Source of the DNA: Pseudomonas viridiflava
Lineage (GTDB): Bacteria > Pseudomonadota > Gammaproteobacteria > Pseudomonadales > Pseudomonadaceae
Reading direction: 5' to 3'
DNA length: 64,000 nucleotides
Assembly: GCF_900582195.1 (NCBI RefSeq)
Contig: NZ_UTHA01000297.1
Coordinates: forward strand, 62,001-126,000
Below are positions 4,670 through 34,471 of the stretch, piece by piece (positions within the stretch are counted from its first letter, which is position 1; each line of letters begins with the position of its first letter). The position numbers were made by a program, and so were the translations under genes. Under the pieces are notes generated by a model. It did no database searches. It worked only from the letters and a program-made list of their open reading frames with translations, and was not told the origin of the DNA.

Positions 4670-4683
4670 CCCGCTGACATCTT

Positions 4684-5370
4684 TTATTTCGGGCGAAACA
4701 GCTTTTGCCACCAACGGCGAGGTTGCAGGGGCACCACGATAACGTCTGAAGCTTGCAGCCAGTTGCGCTCATAATCCCAGGCATGACCACCCCAGAGCTT
4801 TCCTGCTTCGTTGGAAAAACCCAGGGTCATGAGCTGATAGGTAAAACCGGCATAGCCGCGCAACCAGTCGAACAGCACCAGTGTGCTGAACCCCGTAGAA
4901 GGTCCAGCGTAGAGCTTGCCTGAGGGTCGAGTGACCGGATAGTTCAACAGCGGCGACAAGGGAATACGATCCATGTACATGGCCACCCCCGGCATCGCAG
5001 ACATCGGCGTTATAGACCCCAACAAGAGCGTGAAACAACGCTCGCTCGCTTGATCCAGCAGCCGCTGCACATCAGGTCCGCAGGGCAACCCGAAAAAGTA
5101 CGCATCCGGCGCATTGCATCCGTGCACGAAAATATTCACGCTTTGCGAATCGAGCAGTGGTGCCTTGATGCAGGTGTTGAAACTGACGACAACGTCATTG
5201 GCGCCAATGTTCAACGCCTGAAAATCCGCCGCCGTGATCGCTGGATTGTTCGCGATCAGTACGACCCGGTCCGCACGACTCAGACACTCACGCAATGCCT
5301 CAGGCAACGCGTCCACAATAGACTGGTCACCGCCGGTTAATGCACCCGGCGCCCTGTGCTCGTTTTTCAT
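4684..5370 (-). CDS. Sialyltransferase-like (GT29-type) glycosyltransferase candidate
   Basis: 228 residues, no signal peptide. Three stretches resemble the conserved motifs of family GT29. RVVLIANNPAI followed by NDVVVSFNTC is like the L motif (VGNGPS...DVVIRFN). GPSTGFSTLVLFDWL is like the S motif (PSTG). HAWDYE is like the HxxxxE motif. The order and spacing are right. GT29 enzymes use CMP-activated acidic sugars; in an LPS locus CMP-Kdo would be the available donor. That substrate is inference. The ATG directly abuts the stop of the glycosyltransferase upstream (5371), so the two are one transcription unit. Confidence 0.55.
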   Translation of the reverse strand: MKNEHRAPGALTGGDQSIVDALPEALRECLSRADRVVLIANNPAITAADFQALNIGANDVVVSFNTCIKAPLLDSQSVNIFVHGCNAPDAYFFGLPCGPDVQRLLDQASERCFTLLLGSITPMSAMPGVAMYMDRIPLSPLLNYPVTRPSGKLYAGPSTGFSTLVLFDWLRGYAGFTYQLMTLGFSNEAGKLWGGHAWDYERNWLQASDVIVVPLQPRRWWQKLFRPK

Positions 5371-6345
5371 TCAGTCCAGTACCTTCATGCCGTAACGCAG
5401 CTTGACCCAGAACCGCGTGAACGCCGAGGGCGGTTGCCATGGACGCATTTCGCGCTGGATTTCAGTAGCGAGGGCCTTGCCGACACGGGCGAAAGAATAG
5501 CGACTTTCTGCGAATGCCTGACCATTGCTGGCGATACGCTGCGCGAGTTGCGGGTCATCCTGCAGCAGTTTGATCTTTTCCACCGCCTCTTCTTCGCTAC
5601 GATAAAACACGGTGTTGTGCATGTCTTCGAAACCGAGCAACCGGTCTTCTTCGCCCTGACTCCAGGCCAGCAGTACACAGCCGCAAGCCATGGCTTCGAA
5701 GTTCTTGATCATGAACTCGTTCATGCCGATGTCGGCACTGACGAAAATCTTGATGCGATTGAGCGTTTGCAGGTATTCCGCGCCGGACTTGGTGCGAGTC
5801 ACCAGCATCCCGGTACGCTGCGAAAGCGACTCGAGCATGGCTTTGCGCTCGGCATATTCGGTACTTTTCAGGCTGCCAAGAAAGCCGATCGGTATGTCCC
5901 GCTCAACACCGGTGTTGTGCAGCATCTGTTCGTCGTAACCCTTGGAGACGAACACCGTGTCGATACCTTCAGCCAGCATCTTGCGCGCGACCACTGCACC
6001 GGACACCAGTGCCCGGCAACTCGGCAGACGACTGTACAGACGCGAATACACGCCACGGTACTTACTCGCCGGCATGTAGTTCTGGTAGGCGTCATGCTCG
6101 AGGAAGACCAGCCCGGGAATGCATTTAAGCACCTGCAGTTGCGGGGCCAGGCGCTTGACCCGGGAGAAGATCACCACGCGATCGAAGGTCTGATAATCAA
6201 CCGAGGCCAGAAACTTCCCCAGGTTCATCTGTTGCTGTTTGCTGAGCCGATAGATGACACATTCATCACAGTTCTGCTGCACGATGTCGTAAAGCCGGTC
6301 GAGAATGACCCGCTGTTCGTCCATCACCAGGAGCATGACTTTCAT
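5371..6345 (-). CDS. Glycosyltransferase with GT-B fold (Glyco_trans_1_2-like C terminus)
   Basis: 324 residues. The C-terminal half has the nucleotide-sugar-binding pattern of GT4-like enzymes: KIFVSADIGMNEFMIKNFE, then MACGCVLLAW, then a helical tail with a YSFARVGKAL segment. The N-terminal half is a short Rossmann domain (MKVMLLVMD, LVFLEHDAY). Expected to act at the cytoplasmic face of the inner membrane on LPS core or another envelope glycan. The downstream GT29-like gene abuts it. There is a 130-bp gap to hldE with no gene in it. Donor and acceptor unknown. Confidence 0.8.
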   Translation of the reverse strand: MKVMLLVMDEQRVILDRLYDIVQQNCDECVIYRLSKQQQMNLGKFLASVDYQTFDRVVIFSRVKRLAPQLQVLKCIPGLVFLEHDAYQNYMPASKYRGVYSRLYSRLPSCRALVSGAVVARKMLAEGIDTVFVSKGYDEQMLHNTGVERDIPIGFLGSLKSTEYAERKAMLESLSQRTGMLVTRTKSGAEYLQTLNRIKIFVSADIGMNEFMIKNFEAMACGCVLLAWSQGEEDRLLGFEDMHNTVFYRSEEEAVEKIKLLQDDPQLAQRIASNGQAFAESRYSFARVGKALATEIQREMRPWQPPSAFTRFWVKLRYGMKVLD

Positions 6346-6475: not shown

Positions 6476-7897
6476 TCAACGACTGCGGATTTTTTCGACA
6501 ATAGCGGTTGTCGAGCTGTTTTCCACAAGCCCCAGCACTTTCACTGTGCCGCCATAAGCCGTCACGATGTCCGCGCCGACCACTTGGTCGATCCCGTAAT
6601 CGCCGCCTTTGACCAGCACGTCCGGCTTGACCTCGCGCAGCAGGTTTTCAGGTGTGCCCTCCGGGAAGCTGATAACCCAGTCGACCGCGCCGAGACCGGC
6701 CAGAACGGCCATACGTCGGTCGACGCTGTTGATCGGACGTCCAGGCCCCTTCAGGCGGCTGACCGATGCATCGTCGTTGACCGCGACAATCAAGCGATCC
6801 CCTTGAGCCCGCGCCTGTTCCAGGTAGGTCACGTGACCGGCATGCAGGATGTCGAAGCAGCCATTGGTGAACACAATCTTTTCGTTGTGCGCGCGGGCAT
6901 CGGCCACGGCGAGCAGCAACTGCTCCAGACCCAGCACTCCACGCTCGGAACCTTCTTCACGCTGAATGGCGCGACGCAGTTCCGGAGCACTGATGGCCGC
7001 CGTACCGAGTTTGCCAACCACGATGCCCGCCGCCAGGTTGGCCAGCGCCACCGCATGGGGCAGATCTTCACCGGCAGCAATCGCTGCGGCCAGGGTAGAA
7101 ATCACCGTGTCACCGGCACCGGTGACGTCGAACACTTCACGGGCACGCGCCGGCAGGTGCAGCGCCGGCTGATCCGGGCGCAGCAGGGTCATGCCGTGCT
7201 CGCCGCGCGTTACCAGCAGCGCGCCGAGTTCGAGGTCGTGCATCAACGCAGCGCCTTTGCTCACCAGCTCATGCTCATCGACGCAACCGCCGACGATGGC
7301 TTCGAACTCGCTGAGGTTCGGGGTGATCAGGCTGGCACCACGGTAAATCGAGAAATCTTTGCCTTTGGGATCGGCCAGCACCGGGATGTTTTTCGCCCGC
7401 GCCGCCTGAATCAGCGCCTGATGGTTTTTCAGGGCGCCTTTGCCGTAGTCGGAAAGTACCAATACCTTGATGCCTTCGAGCAAGTCGTCGACCTGCGACC
7501 CGAGGGCAAGGGCGTCGGTGGCGAACGGTTCTTCAAAGTCGATACGCAGCAGTTGCTGGTGCCGGCTCATGACCCGTAGCTTGACGATGGTTGGCTGGTG
7601 CGCGATGCGCTGGAACAGGGCACGTACACCCGCGCCTTTGAGACTGTTGCTCAGGCTGTCGGCGGCTTCGTCGTCGCCGGTCACACCGACCAGCGACGCC
7701 GGCGCACCCAGCGCGGCAATGTTCAAGGCAACGTTCGCGGCGCCACCCGGACGGTCTTCGATCTGTTCGACCTTAACGACCGGCACCGGCGCCTCAGGGG
7801 AAATCCGTGAGGTTCCGCCATGCCAGTAACGGTCGAGCATGACATCGCCGACTACCAAGACCGGGGCTTGATCGAAACGCGGCATGGACAACTTCAT
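6476..7897 (-). CDS. hldE: Bifunctional heptose-7-phosphate kinase / heptose-1-phosphate adenylyltransferase
   Basis: 473 residues from the ATG at 7897 (MKLSMPRFDQAPVLVVGDVMLDRYWHG); the frame is open further upstream, but that part is compositionally shadow sequence and the usual length is 474. Residues ~1-320 are a ribokinase-type kinase (GDVMLDRY, PGGAANVALN, DVTGAGDTVIS). Residues ~345-473 are a nucleotidyltransferase (FTNGCFDILHAGHV, VKGGDYG). It makes ADP-D-glycero-beta-D-manno-heptose precursors for the inner core added by WaaC and WaaF, encoded further along the window. The 3' end of the PIG-L gene lies 64 bp upstream, so the gene may share a transcript with msbA-mig14. Confidence 0.97.
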   Translation of the reverse strand: MKLSMPRFDQAPVLVVGDVMLDRYWHGGTSRISPEAPVPVVKVEQIEDRPGGAANVALNIAALGAPASLVGVTGDDEAADSLSNSLKGAGVRALFQRIAHQPTIVKLRVMSRHQQLLRIDFEEPFATDALALGSQVDDLLEGIKVLVLSDYGKGALKNHQALIQAARAKNIPVLADPKGKDFSIYRGASLITPNLSEFEAIVGGCVDEHELVSKGAALMHDLELGALLVTRGEHGMTLLRPDQPALHLPARAREVFDVTGAGDTVISTLAAAIAAGEDLPHAVALANLAAGIVVGKLGTAAISAPELRRAIQREEGSERGVLGLEQLLLAVADARAHNEKIVFTNGCFDILHAGHVTYLEQARAQGDRLIVAVNDDASVSRLKGPGRPINSVDRRMAVLAGLGAVDWVISFPEGTPENLLREVKPDVLVKGGDYGIDQVVGADIVTAYGGTVKVLGLVENSSTTAIVEKIRSR

Positions 7898-9366: not shown

Positions 9367-10263
9367 TCAGACCTTGTAGACCGGGACCGTGTGGCACCAG
9401 CGATCCTTGTATTCACGGTCGGCACGACCGAATGAATAACGCAACGGCTTGCCCAGCGCCTGCGCGTCGGCCCAGGCTTGCTGGGTATTGACGAAACTCA
9501 ATACGCTACCGGGGCTGAACTCGCGACTCTGCGGGTCGACGCCGCCATTGATGTATTCCAGCGAAACCCACTGCGGCGCCTCGACGCGGTACAAAACCTG
9601 AATGGCCACGGGCGCCGATTCGAGCATGGCCACGGAACCGGTCATGAATTCGCGCAACAGCGTGAAGACCTCGGCGAGGCCAGCCTTGCCTGGCACTTCA
9701 AAGCCCCAGCGGCGCTCGAACAGATCACCGTAAGCCTGCGCCTGCTCGGCCGCAGAAAACCCGGACATCGGCACCAGCGAACCACCCGCCTCTTCGAGCA
9801 GGCGCTGTTCGCGGCGCTGGTTGTAGCGAAACTTCTTCGAATACTCTTCCGGCAACCGCGCCAGAGCCAAGCCCTCGGGCTGCACTTTCAAGGTGCTGAT
9901 CTGCTCGGCATTGAGCTGGGAGACATAAGCCATACGCTGGCGCACCGGTACGACGACATCGGGAGCAATCGGCAGGATGATCTCCGCGTTGCCCATGTCC
10001 AGCAATCCGCGCTTGCCCTCACGCTTGAGCACTTCCTTGGACAAGGCAACATGACGGCCCCAGCAAGGAATGGCGGCCACTACTTCACCGCCAACGACCC
10101 AGCCCAGATAACGCAGTTCGATACCCACGAACGCTGACAGTCGCTCAACCACCTCGGGATGCGTGGCGAAACTCCCGCCGAAACGCTGCCAGGCCCGAGC
10201 ATAGGCATCGCGGTCGATTTCAGTCCAGCCACGCTCACGAAAGCTGCGAAACATCGTCAGCAT
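9367..10263 (-). CDS. mig-14: Mig-14-like protein (GNAT-fold, antimicrobial-peptide resistance)
   Basis: 298 residues resembling Mig-14 of Salmonella and its Pseudomonas relative: N-terminal FRSFRERGWTEIDRDAYARAWQRFGGSF, central KKFRYNQRREQRLLEEAGG and C-terminal FGRADREYKDRWCHTVPV. The body looks like a FemAB/GNAT acyltransferase fold. In Salmonella Mig-14 is inner-membrane associated and helps resist cationic antimicrobial peptides. The ATG overlaps the msbA stop by seven bases; an ATG three codons later is an alternative. The order msbA, mig-14, PIG-L, hldE on one strand supports an envelope role. Confidence 0.8.
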   Translation of the reverse strand: MLTMFRSFRERGWTEIDRDAYARAWQRFGGSFATHPEVVERLSAFVGIELRYLGWVVGGEVVAAIPCWGRHVALSKEVLKREGKRGLLDMGNAEIILPIAPDVVVPVRQRMAYVSQLNAEQISTLKVQPEGLALARLPEEYSKKFRYNQRREQRLLEEAGGSLVPMSGFSAAEQAQAYGDLFERRWGFEVPGKAGLAEVFTLLREFMTGSVAMLESAPVAIQVLYRVEAPQWVSLEYINGGVDPQSREFSPGSVLSFVNTQQAWADAQALGKPLRYSFGRADREYKDRWCHTVPVYKV

Positions 10264-12077
10264 ACGTTGGTCGCGTGGGCCGGCAGAGGTTCGTCGCCCT
10301 CTTCAAACTCTTTGGCGTGCAGGCGGGAGTAGTAGCCGTTCTGCTGCAGCAGTTGCGCGTGAGTACCGCGCTCGACAATCCGGCCTTCGTCCATAACCAG
10401 AATCAGGTCAGCCTTCTCAATGGTGCTCAAGCGGTGAGCGATCACCAGGGTCGTGCGGTTTTGCACCACATGATCCAGCGCCGCCTGAATATGTCGCTCC
10501 GACTCGGTATCGAGGGCGGAAGTAGCCTCGTCGAGAATCAGCAGCGGCGCATCCTTGAGCAGCGCTCGAGCAATGGCAATGCGCTGGCGTTGGCCGCCAG
10601 ACAGCAACACGCCGTTTTCACCGACCAGGGTTTCGTAACCTTCCGGCATCTTGACGATGAACTCATCGGCATAGGCCTCGGAAGCGGCCCGCTTGACCTC
10701 CTCGAACGGCGCCCCCGCCAGATCGCCATAAGCGATGTTGTTGGTCACCGTATCGTTGAACAGCGTGACCTGCTGGGTCACCAGCGCAATCTGGCGACGC
10801 AGACTGTGCAAGGTGAAGTCCTGCACGCGCACGCCGTCGAGCAGAATCTCGCCCTGTTCATGCTGATAGAAACGCGGAATAAGCCCGGCGAGGGTCGACT
10901 TGCCGCTGCCCGAACGCCCCACCAGCGCGACCATTTGCCCCGGTTCAACGACAAAACTGATGTCATTGAGCACCTGTTTGTCAGTGTCCGGGTACTGGAA
11001 ACTAAGATTGCGCACTTCCAGACGGCCCTCAAGGCGATCGCGCTCGACCGTGCCCTGATCCACTTCAGCCGGCTCATCCAGTTGCTCGAAAATACTTTCG
11101 GCACCGGCCACGCCTTTCTGAATGGTCGAGCTGACTTCCGAGAGCTGGCGAATCGGTTTTGGCAACAGACCGGCCATGGTGATGTAAGCCACCAGATCGC
11201 CCGGCGATGCGTCGCCGCGAAGGTACAGCACGAGGAACATGACCACGGCCATGGCGCTGTAAGTCACCAGTTGCAACATCGGCGTGTAGACGGCGCCGGT
11301 CTTGGTCATCGTCAACTGCTTGTCGGTGTTGCTCTGGCTGGCATCGCGGAAGCGATCCTTTTCGTACTGCTCACCGCCAAAACTGCGCACAACGCGGTAA
11401 CCATGAATGGTCTCGGACGCGACGTGGGTAACGTTACCCATCGAGACCTGGATCTTCTTGCTTTGCTTGCGAAATTTTTTGCTGGTGCTGCTCACCATCA
11501 AGCCGATCAACGGCAGGATGGCGACCATCACCAGCGTGAGCTTCCAGTTCATCCACAACAACGTGCAGAACAGGAAAATCACGGTCATGCCTTCACGGAT
11601 CACCACTTTGATCGCGTCGGTTGCCGCGCCGGTGACCATCGTCACGTTGAAGGTGATGCGGGAAATCAGGTGGCCGGAGTTGTTCTTGTCGAAGAAGCGA
11701 TTGGGCAACTCCAGCAATTTGTTGAACAGCACCACCCGCAGGTCATGCACCAACCCCAGGGAAACCCGAGCCAGGAAGAAGTTGCCAAGGTACGAACCCA
11801 CGCCCTGCAACAGCGCGATGAGCACGATCATCAGCGGCACGGTTTCGAGCAACTGCAATTTGCCCAGATAAGGGTTACCCGGAAACAGGCTGGCTTCAGG
11901 ATTGGCCAGACCATCGACGAAATACTTGAGGATGTAAGCGAGCATCGGTTGAGTCGATGCGAAGATCAGAAACCCGACGATACTGAGAAGGAAGAGACCG
12001 GCATAAGGCCGCACGTAAGCCAAAAGGCGGAAATAGATCGCCAGCGTTGACTGGGCTTTCGGTTCAGGACTGCTCAT
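10257..12077 (-). CDS. msbA: Lipid A export ATP-binding/permease protein MsbA
   Basis: 606 residues, the usual length for MsbA. The N-terminal half has six membrane helices of a type IV ABC exporter (LISRITFNV motif near the first coupling helix). The C-terminal half is the nucleotide-binding domain with Walker A GRSGSGKST (~residue 390), signature LSGGQRQR, Walker B LLILDEATSALD and the switch His (IAHRLST). As a homodimer it flips lipid A-core from the cytoplasmic to the periplasmic leaflet. It leads the - strand mig-14, PIG-L, hldE series and is divergent from the kinase-like gene at 12203; the 125-bp gap should hold both promoters. Confidence 0.97.
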   Translation of the reverse strand: MSSPEPKAQSTLAIYFRLLAYVRPYAGLFLLSIVGFLIFASTQPMLAYILKYFVDGLANPEASLFPGNPYLGKLQLLETVPLMIVLIALLQGVGSYLGNFFLARVSLGLVHDLRVVLFNKLLELPNRFFDKNNSGHLISRITFNVTMVTGAATDAIKVVIREGMTVIFLFCTLLWMNWKLTLVMVAILPLIGLMVSSTSKKFRKQSKKIQVSMGNVTHVASETIHGYRVVRSFGGEQYEKDRFRDASQSNTDKQLTMTKTGAVYTPMLQLVTYSAMAVVMFLVLYLRGDASPGDLVAYITMAGLLPKPIRQLSEVSSTIQKGVAGAESIFEQLDEPAEVDQGTVERDRLEGRLEVRNLSFQYPDTDKQVLNDISFVVEPGQMVALVGRSGSGKSTLAGLIPRFYQHEQGEILLDGVRVQDFTLHSLRRQIALVTQQVTLFNDTVTNNIAYGDLAGAPFEEVKRAASEAYADEFIVKMPEGYETLVGENGVLLSGGQRQRIAIARALLKDAPLLILDEATSALDTESERHIQAALDHVVQNRTTLVIAHRLSTIEKADLILVMDEGRIVERGTHAQLLQQNGYYSRLHAKEFEEGDEPLPAHATNVC

Positions 12078-12859: not shown

Positions 12860-14320
12860 TCAGCGGCCGATGACCACCACCGTGGCACCTTTGCGGTTGG
12901 CGAAGTGTTCGATAATGCGCAGCTTGTGCGCGACCAGCCACTCGTTCAGCCACGGCTCGCTAGCCTTCGCCTCGATGACGAAATAGCGGTAGTCGCCGGC
13001 ATGGGCTGCCGACATCGCTTCTTCCTGAGTCAAACCTGGCATGACGTAGCCGCGACCGGCGTAATAGCTGATCCGCCCGTCCTCGAAGTAAGTCGGCGCG
13101 TCCCGCTCGACATGGCTGGAGACCCAGCGCCCCGCCTCGACATAGTGGGTTTTGCCGGCCCCGGTGGAAATGACGTTCGACAGCATCACCAGCAAACCCA
13201 GCACCACCAGCCATTTGCCGCAACGCGGGAATTCGCGGACAAATGCCGCCAGCCCCATCGCCAGCACAGGCACAAACAACAGATTCAGGAAACTCAGATA
13301 GCGCGTATTCATGAACTGCAGCTTGATGAAAAACAGCACCAGCACCACCAGGTACAGCAATGCCGCCCAGGCGAAAGGACGATAGTCACGCCAGTAGATG
13401 CCTAATACGCCCCAGTTGCGGCGCAGGATGAACGGTACGGCGAAAGGCCCCATCAGCTTCACGAAACTGATCGCCATGCTCGCCAGAATGCCGAAGAAAA
13501 TGATCCGCCCGGCTTCGTCCTGGGAGTACTTGTTGATCAGTGAGTTGGCAAACTGGTCGCACAACATCTGGAAGGAGGCGAACACACTGTGTGGCGCAAT
13601 CATGTCCAGAAACAGCATCACGCGCGCCGACATGAACACACCGGACACCGAAACGGCCAGCACCCCCAAAACCGGTAGCAGCGAGAACTGCGCGAATTGC
13701 ATCCGTCGGCCCGACGACCACAGATTGGGCAACTGCCACAGCCCCAACGCAGCAACCAGCAGCAAGGCTTCCAGCCGAAACAGGACTGCCCCGACGATAG
13801 CCAGATGAATGAAAGCCGCTCGCAGCCAGCCGCCACGGGCTTGCCAGCGCATCGCGAGCCATAGCGTCAGCGTGCAGAAAAACCAGAAACCGCACTCACG
13901 GATGATGTCATTGCGAAAAGCATTGACCGCCGGCATTGCCAGCACCACGAGACAAGCCCAGCGGGTGACCTCGGGAGAACGTTGACGGACGCAATCGACC
14001 ATCAACGCGCTGGTGCCGGCAAAGAACAGACCGCACCAGAGATAGGCACTCAGTTCCAACGGCAAACGCAGGACGGTATGCGTACCGGCCAGCAGGAAGG
14101 AAAACCACGGCCAGTCGAACGCTGCCCAGGCCACGTTGGGGCCTTGCTCGGTGACTTGCTGCGCGATATCGATGTACAGCGCCGCATCTCGCCCGACGGT
14201 TGCAGTGCCCATGACCGCAATCAGCGAGAGCAGAATACTGCCTAAAAATGCCAGCCATACCGGGTGTTCGTCGATGATTCTGGAGACTCGAGTTACCACT
14301 TCACTGCCCGTACCTTTCAC
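12860..14320 (-). CDS. Membrane GT-C glycosyltransferase (GT39/ArnT-like)
   Basis: 486 residues with around ten membrane helices and a soluble C-terminal domain. Near the N terminus VGRDAALYIDIAQQV sits in the first large periplasmic loop, where GT-C enzymes carry their catalytic acidic motif (RDE.Y-like). Such enzymes move a sugar from a polyprenyl-phosphate carrier to a periplasmic acceptor such as LPS core. The start is GTG with GAGG seven bases upstream; no ATG fits. It converges on the gene ending at 12856 with three bases between. I see no Wzy_C-type O-antigen ligase in this locus, so this protein may fill an analogous position. Confidence 0.75.
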   Translation of the reverse strand: MKGTGSEVVTRVSRIIDEHPVWLAFLGSILLSLIAVMGTATVGRDAALYIDIAQQVTEQGPNVAWAAFDWPWFSFLLAGTHTVLRLPLELSAYLWCGLFFAGTSALMVDCVRQRSPEVTRWACLVVLAMPAVNAFRNDIIRECGFWFFCTLTLWLAMRWQARGGWLRAAFIHLAIVGAVLFRLEALLLVAALGLWQLPNLWSSGRRMQFAQFSLLPVLGVLAVSVSGVFMSARVMLFLDMIAPHSVFASFQMLCDQFANSLINKYSQDEAGRIIFFGILASMAISFVKLMGPFAVPFILRRNWGVLGIYWRDYRPFAWAALLYLVVLVLFFIKLQFMNTRYLSFLNLLFVPVLAMGLAAFVREFPRCGKWLVVLGLLVMLSNVISTGAGKTHYVEAGRWVSSHVERDAPTYFEDGRISYYAGRGYVMPGLTQEEAMSAAHAGDYRYFVIEAKASEPWLNEWLVAHKLRIIEHFANRKGATVVVIGR

Positions 14321-14375: not shown

Positions 14376-15284
14376 TTACCGAAATAGCAACCGCAAAGCC
14401 TTGCGAGTGTATGACCAGCGCGAGAATGTGCGCCAGTCTGCACGTAATGCCTGAAAGTAGAAGCCCTTGGCCAAGGCATATTCACCGTGGGAGTAACAGT
14501 CGCGAAACAGCGACAGGCAGCGCTGCGCCAGAAAGGCCTGACGCAGGTCATGCATCTCTTCAGGCATGCGTTGACTGGAAAATACCTCGTTCACGACCTG
14601 ATCCGTGCCGGCAGCAAGGCTCTGGCGCAAATCATGGCGCATGCTGTCGGCGTGCTTGTATATAAGGGCCAGAGGCTTGTCCAGGACAGTGCAGGGGTAA
14701 CGCGCCAATACTTGCGCAAACACCGGCAGATCCTCGACGTTGCGCAACTGCTCAGGATAAGCACCGGGAACGAACGCCTCTCGATGCATCGCGCACGCGC
14801 CGTTGGAGATCGATACGGTTTTATCCAGCAGATAGCCTTGCAAGCGGTGGCGAGCCGTCAACGGCAAGGGCTTGACTGACTGCAAGCTGCGTTTGCCGTC
14901 GGCAAAGACCGACCAGTGGGCGCCGATGACCATTCGGCTTTGAGGGTTGCTGGCAATGTGCTGCGCGAGTGCAGCCAGTGCACCGGGCGCCATTTCGTCA
15001 TCGGAATCGAGAAAAATCAGGTATTGCCCTGTCGTTTCTTCAAGCCCCCGATTGCGCACGGTAGACAATCCGCCATTGCTTTTGCGCAGCGCGCGAAAAC
15101 GCCTGCCATGCTTGAGCAGGAGTTTTTCCACCACCTCTGGCGTATCGTCCGTCGACCCATCGTCGATGACCAGCAGATCCGCCGTCGCCTCATCCAGCTG
15201 CGCCAACACCGACTCCACTGCTCGCGGCAGGGTTCGTGCGTAGTTGTAAACCGGAATGACGACGCTGATCAGTGTTTCAGTCAA
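14376..15284 (-). CDS. Family 2 (GT-A) glycosyltransferase
   Basis: 302 residues with the GT2 pattern: ISVVIPVYNYARTLPRAVESVLAQ, LLVIDDGSTDDTPE, and LDSDDEMAPGALAAL, where DSDD is the metal-binding DxD site. It uses a nucleotide sugar in the cytoplasm, probably on LPS core; the place corresponds to WapR-like rhamnosyltransferases of P. aeruginosa, which is inference. The start is TTG, with AAAGGA seven bases upstream inside the 3' end of the carbamoyltransferase gene; the genes overlap by eight bases and no ATG is suitable. Translational coupling with 15277-17031 is likely. Confidence 0.88.
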   Translation of the reverse strand: MTETLISVVIPVYNYARTLPRAVESVLAQLDEATADLLVIDDGSTDDTPEVVEKLLLKHGRRFRALRKSNGGLSTVRNRGLEETTGQYLIFLDSDDEMAPGALAALAQHIASNPQSRMVIGAHWSVFADGKRSLQSVKPLPLTARHRLQGYLLDKTVSISNGACAMHREAFVPGAYPEQLRNVEDLPVFAQVLARYPCTVLDKPLALIYKHADSMRHDLRQSLAAGTDQVVNEVFSSQRMPEEMHDLRQAFLAQRCLSLFRDCYSHGEYALAKGFYFQALRADWRTFSRWSYTRKALRLLFR

Positions 15285-17031
15285 GTTCGTATCCTTTTAC
15301 ACCCTCTTTTACGACCAGAATATCTTCCATGATCAGGTATTCCAGGTCAGAACCGAAAAACATGTTCAACGCGTCAGTCGGTGAGCAGATCATCGGTTCG
15401 CCACGACGGTTGAGCGAGGTGTTCAGCGATACACCATTACCGGTCAGATTTTCCAGCGCCTTCATCATGTCGTAGTAGCGCGGGTTGTATTCGCGCTTGA
15501 GCACCTGGGCGCGAGAAGTGCCATCTTCGTGGACGACTTCCGGCACGCGGGTCTTCCACTCTTCAGCCACTTCGAAGGTGAACGTCATGAACGGTGCCGG
15601 GTGATCGATCTTGATCATCTGTGGCGCGACGGTGTCGAGCATCGACGGGCAGAAAGGCCTCCAGCGCTCGCGGAACTTGATCTGGTGGTTGATCCGGTCA
15701 GCCACACCGGCAACGCTCGGGCAACCGATGATCGAACGACCACCCAGCGCACGCGGACCGAACTCCATGCGCCCCTGGAACCAGGCAACCGGATTGCCGT
15801 CGACCATGATCTTGGCGATCTCTTCAGGCATGTTGTCGAGCTTGCGCCAGGTCGGCTTGCTCTCGTGACGCGCGCAGGCGGCGATCACGTCTTCGTTGCT
15901 GTACGAAGGGCCGAGGTAGACGTGTTCCATCTTCTCGACCGGCACGCCACGGGCGTGCGAAACGTAGGCGGCAGCGCCCACGGCAGTGCCGGCATCGCCG
16001 GACGCCGGCTGGACGAACAGCTCTTTGATATCGTCACGGGCAATGATTTTCTGGTTCAGCTTGACGTTCAGTGCACAGCCGCCGGCGAAGGCCAGCTTGC
16101 CGGTTTCCTTGAGCACATCGCCCAGGTAGTGGTCGATCATCTGCAACGCCAGTTTCTCGAACAGCGCTTGCATGCTCGCAGCGTAGTGAATGTACGGTTC
16201 GTCAGCGATGTCGCCTTCGCGCTTCGGACCCAGCCACTCGATCAGCTTGGGCGAGAAGTAGAAGCCCTTGCCCTTCTCTTTGTAGCGACGCAGGCCGATC
16301 ACGTTGGCGTAGTCGGTGTTGATCACCAACTCGCCGTTTTCGAACGAGGCCAGACGCGAAAAGTCGTATTTGCTGGCATCACCGTAAGGCGCCATGCCCA
16401 TGACCTTGAACTCACCGTCGAGCATCTCGAAACCGAGGAACTCGGTGATCGCGCCGTAAAGGCCGCCTAGGGAGTCCGGATCGAAGAATTCCTTGATCTT
16501 GTGAATCTTGCCGTTTTCGCCGTAGCCGAAGAAGGTCGTGGCGTACTCGCCCTTGCCGTCGATACCAAGGATCGCGGTTTTTTCTTTGAAACCGGAGCAG
16601 TGGTAAGCGCTGGAGGCGTGAGCCAGGTGATGCTCGACCGGCTCGATCTTGATCTTTTTCGGATCGAAACCCAGTTGCTCCAGGCACCAGACAATCTTGT
16701 TGCGATAACGCTTGTAGCGGCGATTGCCCATCAGGATTGCATCAAGGGCGCGATCCGGCGCGTACCAGTAACGCTTGGCGTAGTGCCAGCGCGCCTTGCC
16801 GAACAGGCTGATCGGAGCAAATGGAATCGCAACCACGTCAACGTCGGACGGCTTGATGCCGGCCTGTTCAAGACAGAACTTCGCCGATTCGTAGGGCATG
16901 CGGTTCTTTGCATGCTTATCGCGTACGAAGCGCTCTTCTTCAGCCGCCGCCACCAGCTTGCCGTCGATGTACAAGGCTGCTGAAGGGTCATGGCTGAGGG
17001 CGCCGGACAGGCCAAGAATCGTCAATGCCAC
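15277..17031 (-). CDS. Carbamoyltransferase (NodU/CmcH/TobZ family), LPS-core associated
   Basis: 584 residues. The N-terminal YrdC/Kae1-type half has ILGLSGALSHDPSAALYIDG, then VEHHLAHASSAYHCSGF, where HxxxH binds metal, and ILGIDGKGE. The C-terminal half has the carbamoyltransferase signature WFQGRMEFGPRALGGRSI and a final LNTSLNRRGEPM. These enzymes transfer carbamoyl from carbamoyl phosphate through carbamoyl-AMP to a sugar hydroxyl; in pseudomonads the inner-core heptose carries a carbamoyl group. The start is GTG with AGAGG upstream. A TATAAT box lies at 17124-17129, and the gene heads the carbamoyltransferase, GT2, GT-C series. Confidence 0.93.
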   Translation of the reverse strand: MALTILGLSGALSHDPSAALYIDGKLVAAAEEERFVRDKHAKNRMPYESAKFCLEQAGIKPSDVDVVAIPFAPISLFGKARWHYAKRYWYAPDRALDAILMGNRRYKRYRNKIVWCLEQLGFDPKKIKIEPVEHHLAHASSAYHCSGFKEKTAILGIDGKGEYATTFFGYGENGKIHKIKEFFDPDSLGGLYGAITEFLGFEMLDGEFKVMGMAPYGDASKYDFSRLASFENGELVINTDYANVIGLRRYKEKGKGFYFSPKLIEWLGPKREGDIADEPYIHYAASMQALFEKLALQMIDHYLGDVLKETGKLAFAGGCALNVKLNQKIIARDDIKELFVQPASGDAGTAVGAAAYVSHARGVPVEKMEHVYLGPSYSNEDVIAACARHESKPTWRKLDNMPEEIAKIMVDGNPVAWFQGRMEFGPRALGGRSIIGCPSVAGVADRINHQIKFRERWRPFCPSMLDTVAPQMIKIDHPAPFMTFTFEVAEEWKTRVPEVVHEDGTSRAQVLKREYNPRYYDMMKALENLTGNGVSLNTSLNRRGEPMICSPTDALNMFFGSDLEYLIMEDILVVKEGVKGYELD

Positions 17032-33073: not shown

Positions 33074-34471
33074 ATGTTAAAACCAACTATCGGGCCGATT
33101 GTCGGCCACGTTACAACTCATCATGCGCGCATCTTCATGCGTGGCGATCACCAGAACAACTCACCGGTATTTGCCGGAATACGTTATCGCACCTCCGGTG
33201 CACAACAATGGTCCAAAGCCAACTTCGTGCAGCTGAGTGACTTACGCGATATGTCACATGTATTCGCTCTGAACAACCTGAGTACTGACACCGAGTATGA
33301 ATATCAGGCCGGCTGGTTCAGCCCGATGAGTCCGGTGCATACGCCGGACAGCGTCGCCGAGTTGCTCCTGCAATGGCCACGAGAGATCTACCGACTGCGC
33401 ACCCGCTCCAGCAAAGCGCAGCAACCCCGAGGGTATATCGTCGGTTCTTGCCGCTACCTGCGCATGACTGCCGGTATCGCCTCCCTGCCGCAATTGGGCG
33501 ACCGCATCTTCGCATCCATCAACCAGGTGATTGAAGGCATACAACCACCGATCAGTGCGGTATTGATGACCGGCGATCAAATTTATGTGGACGACTTGAA
33601 CCTGATTGCCCCGGATCGCGAGTACAAAGACATCCTGAACAAGTACCGCGCGGCTTTTTCCCAACCCAATATAAAACGACTGATGTCTGGCACGTCGACT
33701 TACATGATTCTCGACGATCACGAAATCGAAGACAACTGGCCGGCCAATGCCAGCAAGTCCGACGGTGATTTATACAGTAATGCCATGGCCGCCTATGAGT
33801 TATATCAGGCCAGTCACAGCCCGGTCCATCCGCTGACAACTAACGGCGATATAGATCACGCAACACTCGAGCATTACTGGTATCAATTCAGCGACGGCGA
33901 TATCGAATGGTTTGTCACTGACAGTCGCACCCGCCGCAACTTGTCCACCGATGACCGGCGCATCCTCGACGAGGCGCAAGAACAAACCTTGCTCAAATGG
34001 CTGAGTCACAGCACGGCACGGGTCAAGTTTGTGGTCACCAGCGTGATGTTCTATCCGGATCGCAAGCTCCACGGCGATGACGCCTGGAAAGCCTTTCCCG
34101 AGCAGCGCCTGCGCCTGCTGGAAACCATCCGCACCCGGCGGATCAAGAATGTCGTGTTCATCTCCGGAGACGTGCACGGGTCGCTGACCGCGCGCTTGAT
34201 CCACAGCGAAGACCCGGACTTCGAAGTCCACACCGTCGTCTCCTCACCGCTGTGCAACAGCAAACTGCTGCCATACGCCAAAGCGTCCACGTTCATTCTG
34301 GATCAGCCGCTGGTGCGCACGGTGGCGGGCAATTATCGGCATGAACTGACCAGCACCGTGGTGAGTGAAGACAATTTCGCCCACCTGGTGGTCGAGGCCG
34401 GGCAGATTCAGGTGAATTACCACGACCGTGATGGCAAACGGCTGCAATCGATCAGCATTCCGTTGCGGTGA
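33074..34471 (+). CDS. PhoD-like metallophosphoesterase without signal peptide
   Basis: 465 residues. An N-terminal beta domain (GPIVGHVTTHHARIFMRG, then STDTEYEYQAGW) resembles the fibronectin-like PhoD_N region. The metallophosphatase domain follows with GSCRYL, MTGDQIYVDDL, ILDDHEIEDNW, FVTDSRTRRN and ISGDVHGSLTARL, the metal ligands in PhoD order. PhoD enzymes are phosphodiesterases/phosphatases needing Ca and Fe and are usually exported by Tat. Here no twin-arginine or other signal sequence is present, so a cytoplasmic role is likely. The flanking DNA is AT-rich and the gene separates aceF from dipA, unlike P. aeruginosa; it may be an insertion. Confidence 0.82.
   Translation: MLKPTIGPIVGHVTTHHARIFMRGDHQNNSPVFAGIRYRTSGAQQWSKANFVQLSDLRDMSHVFALNNLSTDTEYEYQAGWFSPMSPVHTPDSVAELLLQWPREIYRLRTRSSKAQQPRGYIVGSCRYLRMTAGIASLPQLGDRIFASINQVIEGIQPPISAVLMTGDQIYVDDLNLIAPDREYKDILNKYRAAFSQPNIKRLMSGTSTYMILDDHEIEDNWPANASKSDGDLYSNAMAAYELYQASHSPVHPLTTNGDIDHATLEHYWYQFSDGDIEWFVTDSRTRRNLSTDDRRILDEAQEQTLLKWLSHSTARVKFVVTSVMFYPDRKLHGDDAWKAFPEQRLRLLETIRTRRIKNVVFISGDVHGSLTARLIHSEDPDFEVHTVVSSPLCNSKLLPYAKASTFILDQPLVRTVAGNYRHELTSTVVSEDNFAHLVVEAGQIQVNYHDRDGKRLQSISIPLR

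Follow-up and report, generated by a model that had tools for sequence, protein, structure and literature searches.

The window, which is the whole stretch of 64,000 nucleotides of Pseudomonas viridiflava DNA that was analysed, carries in its LPS core cluster a gene whose product is almost certainly homologous to the glycosyltransferases of family GT29. An unannotated, conserved gene of an LPS operon is thereby tied to a family known for animal sialylation. The full proposal, a soluble GT29-like enzyme that moves Kdo from CMP-Kdo to the LPS outer core, is given an even chance. The initial annotation had proposed a GT29-like protein from three short motifs, and profile tests in both directions bear this out. 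The GT29-like proteins appear from their sequences to form a divergent branch that lies below the threshold of the Pfam model PF00777.

The GT29-like gene and its motifs

The gene, a putative CMP-Kdo transferase gene, occupies positions 4684..5370 of the reverse strand and is an intact open reading frame of 228 amino acids with an ATG start. The highest 19-residue Kyte-Doolittle mean of the protein is 1.36, and no strongly hydrophobic segment is present. The protein ends in a basic, Trp-rich tail, RRWWQKLFRPK (residues 218-228; 4687..4719, reverse strand), whose Trp220 and Trp221 are invariant in all 29 rows of alignment A1 and which may possibly contact the membrane surface. Since a strongly hydrophobic 19-residue stretch is missing and the tail is basic and rich in tryptophan, a cytosolic, membrane-touching enzyme is likely. 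Four open reading frames of the type found in genome G291 stop short of any Trp-rich basic tail. Compared with four relatives, dN/dS is about 0.11-0.19 (Nei-Gojobori), with dS above 1 for two of the four.

The sialylmotif-L-like stretch VVLIANNPAI...DVVVSFN (residues 36-65; 5176..5265, reverse strand), with ANNPAI at residues 40-45 and DVVVSFN at 59-65, presumably binds CMP. Extended by one residue to RVVLIANNPAI, it is aligned by hhalign with VGNGP...VVRFN of bacterial GT29 proteins, the G of GN being A here. The sialylmotif-S-like stretch GPSTGF...LGF (residues 156-185; 4816..4905, reverse strand), which includes GPSTGFSTL at 156-164, is aligned with the PSTG of bacterial GT29 proteins by hhalign and by HMMER with a bacterial GT29 profile. 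The VS-like motif HAWDYE (H-x4-E, residues 196-201; 4768..4785, reverse strand) is aligned with H-x-W-x-x-E of bacterial GT29 proteins, and its histidine is the presumed catalytic base. The equivalent GT29 histidine is ambiguous in the alignment with ST3Gal1, as HMMER puts the histidine of the bacterial reference proteins (A4, described below) that matches HAWDYE near HHYW of ST3Gal1, ahead of the ST3Gal1 VS motif. No separate H-Y motif III is seen between GFS (184-186) and H196, a region in which the alignment is ambiguous.

The motifs ANNP[AS]I, GP[ST]TGF, and HAWD[YF]E are each present in 28/28 rows of alignment A5, which consists of the window protein and 27 relatives that are 34-97% identical to it. 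These rows are 22 of the 29 rows of A1 and six relatives from a second genus of the same family; two of the latter, L045 and L046, have a stop flagged inside the match and only their open part is used. The relative L002, nearly identical to L001, is left out of A1, A5, and A6 and kept in A2. The residues conserved across the GT29-like family are N41, N42, N65, the P[ST]TG turn, and H196, which, from the alignment and from background knowledge of GT29 enzymes, we take to map onto the CMP-binding and base positions of that family.

The initial annotation had stated that the three motifs match the L, S, and VS motifs of GT29 in order and spacing; the order is the same, while the spacing is similar and not identical. 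Counted from the residue that precedes AN/GN, the P of PSTG lies 117-119 residues on in the GT29-like family, and the histidine 39 residues beyond that P. The 12 bacterial GT29 proteins nearest to the family have distances of 138-151 and 31-34, and seven others have 97-102 and 41-42.

Relationship to GT29

The window protein receives no Pfam name and no NCBIfam name, and PHROGs gives nothing of use for it. For PF00777, no match is found in the own genome, and none is listed for any of the 28 members of A5 up to E 10, in a search in which the HMMER filters drop most matches above 0.1. The GT42 model, PF06002, likewise has no match in the own genome and none listed for the A5 members; a second GT42 match, L071, is below cut-off and was unused. 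Searches of the PDB by sequence, with the window protein, A1, or A5 as query, yield nothing useful, and with A5 no sialyltransferase is matched. Because Pfam is silent on the GT29-like members scanned, bacterial proteins in or near PF00777 were gathered as a reference.

PF00777 is over cut-off in 8/398 genomes of the phylum, and 12/151 genomes of one family in another class have a protein in or near it. From 26 PF00777-matching loci, 19 were used, 12 of them as set A4 and seven as a second bacterial GT29 group; L059, which has a stop, was passed over, and L040, L041, L052, L053, L054, and L069 were excluded for their length or divergence. A4 is thus built of PF00777-type bacterial proteins from one family of another class in the same phylum, includes no Pseudomonas sequence, and its source genomes, being of the same phylum and another class, are probably alphaproteobacteria. 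All 12 members of A4 match PF00777 at E up to 1, and 8/12 are over the curated cut-off. Against the PDB, A4 matches ST3Gal1 (1e-6), ST6GalNAc2 (1.6e-4), and ST6Gal1 (1.5e-3 to 2.3e-3).

In the search of whole genomes with A4, the most independent of these tests, the GT29-like gene is the best match in 34/34 carriers, with E from 1.3e-7 to 2.2e-3, and the sole match in 20 non-carriers has E 0.97. These genome matches cover only the S-VS part (profile positions 145-195), and the support for the L motif comes from hhalign. The reverse search with A5 gives matches below E 0.01 in 5/40 genomes, all five being proteins with VGN, RFN, PSTG, and H-x-W-x-x-E. Two of the five are members of A4, so this search recovered only 2/12 A4 proteins, and three lie outside the PF00777 matches of that 151-genome family. 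GT29-type proteins that PF00777 does not report are encoded at L154 (1057-1701, forward strand) and L156 (1432-2148, reverse strand). Both genes immediately precede a gene that resembles the one for the urease alpha subunit (ureC by sequence), an odd place for a glycosyltransferase.

In hhalign, A5 and A4 align across 161 columns at 96.1% and P 2.9e-9, and each of the L, S, and VS motifs falls on its counterpart. A local repeat of this profile-profile comparison scores 61.4, against a maximum of 37.3 (the next being 22.6) in 300 column shuffles and 16.5 for the reversed alignment, so the resemblance goes beyond chance. As single sequences, 20 other window proteins score at most 22.6, and the GT29-like window protein scores 47.1. 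The second bacterial GT29 group alone (7 sequences) has no significant match with A5 (P 0.17), and it is related to A4 (P 3e-12); when both bacterial groups are pooled, the alignment with A5 is shortened to 48 columns (P 1.2e-6). The identity between the window family and A4-type proteins is 18-22% in alignment A3, which was used only for these values because it mixes both families with truncated bacterial members. The relation to GT29 proposed in the initial annotation is upheld by the profile tests in both directions, although Pfam itself gives no match.

Two other families were set aside on sequence. One GT42-type protein gives 2.9% in hhalign, with 24 columns and a score of 22.7, which is background, and the one WaaZ sequence compared, for GT73, scores 13.0 (P 0.46).

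Place in the LPS core cluster

The GT29-like gene abuts another glycosyltransferase gene, as had been noticed from the sequence at the outset: the TGA of the glycosyltransferase (PF13524 by Pfam; 5371..6345, reverse strand) directly precedes the GT29-like ATG, with zero-base spacing. Further upstream, and also on the reverse strand, are hldE, for ADP-heptose synthesis (6476..7897; named by sequence and synteny), a PIG-L family deacetylase (PF02585; 7962..9425), a Mig-14-like protein (PF07395; 9367..10263), an msbA-like lipid A-core exporter (10257..12077), and a wapO-like carbamoyltransferase (15277..17031), the last two owing their names to their sequences and to the genes listed in Table 1 of PMC8005017. 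Pfam also finds LPS-kinase and further glycosyltransferase families in this core cluster. The placement in an LPS locus made in the initial annotation is confirmed by the PIG-L, Mig-14, LPS-kinase, and glycosyltransferase neighbours, and by hldE, msbA, and the carbamoyltransferase, which are recognised by sequence and gene order. These genes make up much of the core-oligosaccharide cluster that Table 1 of PMC8005017 gives for P. syringae and P. aeruginosa.

The order hldE, glycosyltransferase, GT29-like gene is kept in 14/14 named loci. All 28 carriers of the genus have the neighbouring glycosyltransferase, with 76-100% identity and, by coordinates, right beside the GT29-like gene; 26 of them have a single match to it at E 1e-10. 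Among non-carriers of the genus, 7/20 have only a 38-53% homologue and 13/20 have none at E 1e-10. Genome G153 has both glycosyltransferase forms (L145, 3483-4493 and 11809-12780), the second of them beside PIG-L. The position beside PIG-L is that of PA5001 in Table 1 of PMC8005017, and PA5001 is named ssg in PMC8406328. Since G153 has both forms, the second at the PA5001 position, the neighbour of the GT29-like gene looks like an Ssg/PA5001-related paralogue. In genome G634 the gene pair lies beside the wapO-like gene, within the core cluster, and in G291 a 36% relative of the GT29-like protein lies in the core cluster with other neighbours. The GT29-like gene thus stays in the core cluster across three arrangements.

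Other open reading frames of these loci may be mentioned. An open reading frame of 266-322 amino acids follows the GT29-like gene in 12/14 named loci (for instance L003, 5743-6540, forward strand) and is absent from the window, L001, and L002; the three that were tested have weak similarity to DUF7796, below cut-off. In the window only 14 bases (4670-4683) separate the GT29-like gene from orf321. A membrane-type protein of 486 amino acids (12860-14320), between the kinase and GT2 genes, has no significant Pfam or NCBIfam match and lies near the waaL position of other pseudomonads, so it is possibly an unrecognised ligase or transferase. Farther away (33074-34471), a PhoD-like phosphatase gene has pyruvate dehydrogenase genes on one side and a GGDEF/EAL-type gene on the other, these neighbours being named by sequence.

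Distribution

The GT29-like gene is found in 28/199 genomes of the genus by protein search, own genome included, and in 6/25 genomes of the second genus by profile search. These 34 genomes are the carriers referred to in this text, and the 20 non-carriers are those listed, of 171, and not a random draw. Wider profile searches find the gene in 2/145 genomes across the order and in 3/299 across the phylum, all in the same family, and all 14 named relatives are Pseudomonas. No relative of the protein is found in phages or plasmids, and there is none among the 26 candidate stretches of viral contigs.

Donor, acceptor, and proposed reaction

The proposed enzyme is a soluble, membrane-peripheral glycosyltransferase homologous to GT29, in which the L and S motifs would form a Rossmann-type pocket for a CMP-activated ulosonic acid. 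As the base, the enzyme would use the invariant HAWDYE histidine, and the sugar would be transferred with inversion. With CMP-beta-Kdo made by KdsB, the most likely donor, the product would be an alpha-linked Kdo. The acceptor would be an LPS outer-core residue that the abutting glycosyltransferase (5371-6345) makes or helps to make; the outer core is a natural guess from the place of the gene in the LPS operon and is considered rather likely. The gene product is probably a CMP-ulosonate transferase, and Kdo is slightly favoured as the transferred sugar.

The donor was approached by counting PF02348 nucleotidyltransferases in all 34 carriers. A match of the KdsB type (208-228 bits) is present in every carrier, the type being checked with NCBIfam (TIGR00466) for the copy of the own genome and assigned by similar scores only in the others. 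The KdsB-type gene is the sole CMP-sugar synthetase detected in 10/34 carriers (5/28 of the genus and 5/6 of the second genus), where the extra PF02348 matches are GlmU (6), a radical-SAM enzyme (1), or none (3), seven of them being checked with NCBIfam. The other 24, own genome included, have at least one further gene of CMP-sugar synthetase type. In the own genome this second gene lies on contig C300 (L133, 767-1486), with a PseG-like open reading frame downstream (name by sequence). With a KdsB-type match in 34/34 carriers and no other synthetase found in 10, CMP-Kdo is the only CMP-sugar that every examined carrier is expected to make. The choice of CMP-Kdo gains support from these KdsB-only carriers, together with the putative Kdo transferase of the plant GT29 family.

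A Kdo residue that could be such a product is described in the genus. The second core glycoform of P. syringae pv. phaseolicola has an alpha-Kdo-(2->6)-Glc end group, a third Kdo in the outer core, which is only marginal in DC3000 and to which the consulted part of the gene table assigns no gene (PMC8005017). In the open-access literature, no LPS core structure of a carrier species was found. The GT29-like gene is a concrete candidate for extra core Kdo in Pseudomonas and, if the reading with Kdo is true, the outer-core Kdo of this genus would gain a candidate enzyme family.

Transfer of an outer-core sugar from a donor other than a CMP-sugar, such as a UDP-hexose, by an enzyme with the GT29 fold is the leading alternative and is unlikely. 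The family name alone leaves the donor unfixed, as the Arabidopsis GT29 member GALT29A is named a galactosyltransferase (PMC11288761, and the listing of PMC4234293), and the L motif is changed from GN to AN. However, the motif order of the GT29 enzymes that use CMP-sugars is kept, and a putative GT29 transferase of Kdo exists (PMC11288761).

Transfer of a CMP-activated nonulosonic acid, of the pseudaminic or legionaminic type, is less probable still. Such a donor could come from the second PF02348 gene of CMP-sugar synthetase type (64-139 bits), which is found in the 24 carriers described above, own genome included, but it cannot serve the whole family, as the other 10 are of the KdsB type only, and the own genome has its second synthetase gene and its LPS core locus on different contigs. 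The second PF02348 gene of G634 also belongs to the CMP-Kdo synthetase type.

About equally improbable is that the protein acts as the partner of the abutting glycosyltransferase and that both together add two residues. The zero-base spacing and the co-occurrence in 28/28 carriers of the genus agree with such a pair, and a precedent exists in LpsB and 2903 of Acinetobacter, which add KdoIII and GlcNAcA (PMC10936431). This idea overlaps with the main explanation of a Kdo transferase, and in four genomes of the G291 type the best homologue found for the neighbour has just 37-39% identity and lies at a distance of about 2.4 kb, so a strict partnership is not general.

Predicted structures

The AlphaFold models, one for the window protein from 15 sequences and one for its relative L010 from 14, have low confidence, with mean pLDDT 57.6 and pTM 0.65 for the former, and 60.4 and 0.68 for the latter. 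In VIA-align, where all Z values are below 8, a level that the program calls common, the window model matches ST6GalNAc2 (Z 6.8, 183 residues, 4.2 A) and ST3Gal1 (Z 6.1, 174 residues, 4.2 A), and the L010 model matches ST3Gal1 (Z 6.7, 164 residues, 4.1 A), ST6GalNAc2 not being listed. Unrelated chains score alike with the window model, namely TRPM4 (Z 7.1) and SteA (Z 6.6), and, apart from an HPPK discussed below, its remaining rows are 4.7 or lower. The TRPM4 row, at the top of the list, was judged a chance match. For neither model does Foldseek reach a match below E 0.001; 6apl is ranked 9th for the window model (E 0.084), and no sialyltransferase is among the best 50 rows for the L010 model.

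In the comparison with GT29 and GT42 folds that the initial annotation had suggested, GT29 folds are matched, but the models are of low confidence and the HPPK of M. jannaschii (8sd5) scores equal to or better than GT29 with both (Z 6.8 for the window model and 7.2 for the L010 model). The models are weakly consistent with a GT29 fold and prove nothing alone. Membership in a wider Rossmann-type fold group that includes this HPPK and GT42, with other chemistry and no kinship to GT29, would agree with the HPPK matches and is very improbable, since the sequence profiles tie the protein to GT29 and the one GT42 protein and the one WaaZ sequence give only background scores. The initial annotation had named as an outcome against it the lack of any GT29 or GT42 match together with the lack of a matching fold; what was found is a GT29 match in the profiles and a weak one in the folds.

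Comparison with known systems

GT29 had been described in the initial annotation as a family known mainly from animals and plants, to which a correction applies. Bacterial GT29 proteins were reported in 2018, with 23 sequences, 19 of them alphaproteobacterial, which have motifs L, S, III, and VS and are without the transmembrane anchor and the motif cysteines (PMC5811610, consulted in part). Bacterial GT29 as a kind is therefore already known, and the Pseudomonas branch appears from its sequences to be new and divergent. It differs from the reported bacterial proteins by ANN in place of GN, by having no recognisable motif III, and by lying below the Pfam threshold. The window protein and the A4 proteins are alike in size (about 200-230 amino acids) and in the order VGN, VxRFN, PSTG, HxWxxE, whereas in the window family ANN stands in place of VGN, the stretch from L to S is 19-34 residues shorter, and that from S to the histidine is 5-8 residues longer. 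At L039, L050, and L051, the gene for a PF00777 protein from the second bacterial group comes immediately behind that of a GT4-type glycosyltransferase (named by sequence) with resemblance to an LPS core enzyme, so the bacterial GT29 protein of these loci may be a core enzyme too.

The animal enzymes ST3Gal1 (2wnb) and ST6GalNAc2 (6apj/6apl) resemble the window protein in the fold match of the low-confidence models and are linked to it through the A4 profile. They differ in having no direct sequence match with it, and bacterial GT29 proteins lack their anchor and motif cysteines (PMC5811610). CstII of C. jejuni (GT42) appears in one fold comparison (Z 4.7, window model) and is absent from the list of the L010 model.

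E. coli WaaZ (GT73) is an LPS core Kdo transferase that adds a further Kdo to the core. The GT29-like protein is like WaaZ in its proposed function, and its profile has no similarity to the one WaaZ sequence (13.0). In Acinetobacter, the third Kdo is added not by WaaA but by two co-dependent proteins, LpsB and 2903, and GT29 does not occur in that paper (PMC10936431). In the open-access literature, no paper was found that joins Pseudomonas, GT29, and Kdo as whole words, and wider searches there gave, by titles and abstracts, none that deals with the GT29-like gene; core structures of Pseudomonas in subscription journals lie outside this scope.

The link between plant GT29 and Kdo drawn in the initial annotation is upheld by Arabidopsis RCKT1/MGP2, a putative Kdo transferase of GT29 whose loss removes Kdo from rhamnogalacturonan II (RG-II), and for which the authors suggest an inverting CMP-beta-Kdo transferase (PMC11288761, consulted in part). 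Assay of the plant enzyme is hindered, according to the same authors, by expression and by the supply of donor and acceptor (PMC11288761). If the donor of the Pseudomonas protein is CMP-Kdo, a small, soluble bacterial GT29 protein would be at hand for enzymology, and Kdo transfer would be supported as an early function of GT29. The broader idea, that bacterial GT29-like enzymes are LPS-core Kdo transferases, counterparts of the plant pectin Kdo transferase, and that Kdo transfer is older than sialylation in GT29, is speculative and rather doubtful. Unlike the window protein, RCKT1/MGP2 acts on pectin, and the homology between the two is only transitive; they are alike in being relatives within GT29, with CMP-Kdo as the likely donor, a probably inverting mechanism, and an expected alpha-Kdo product.
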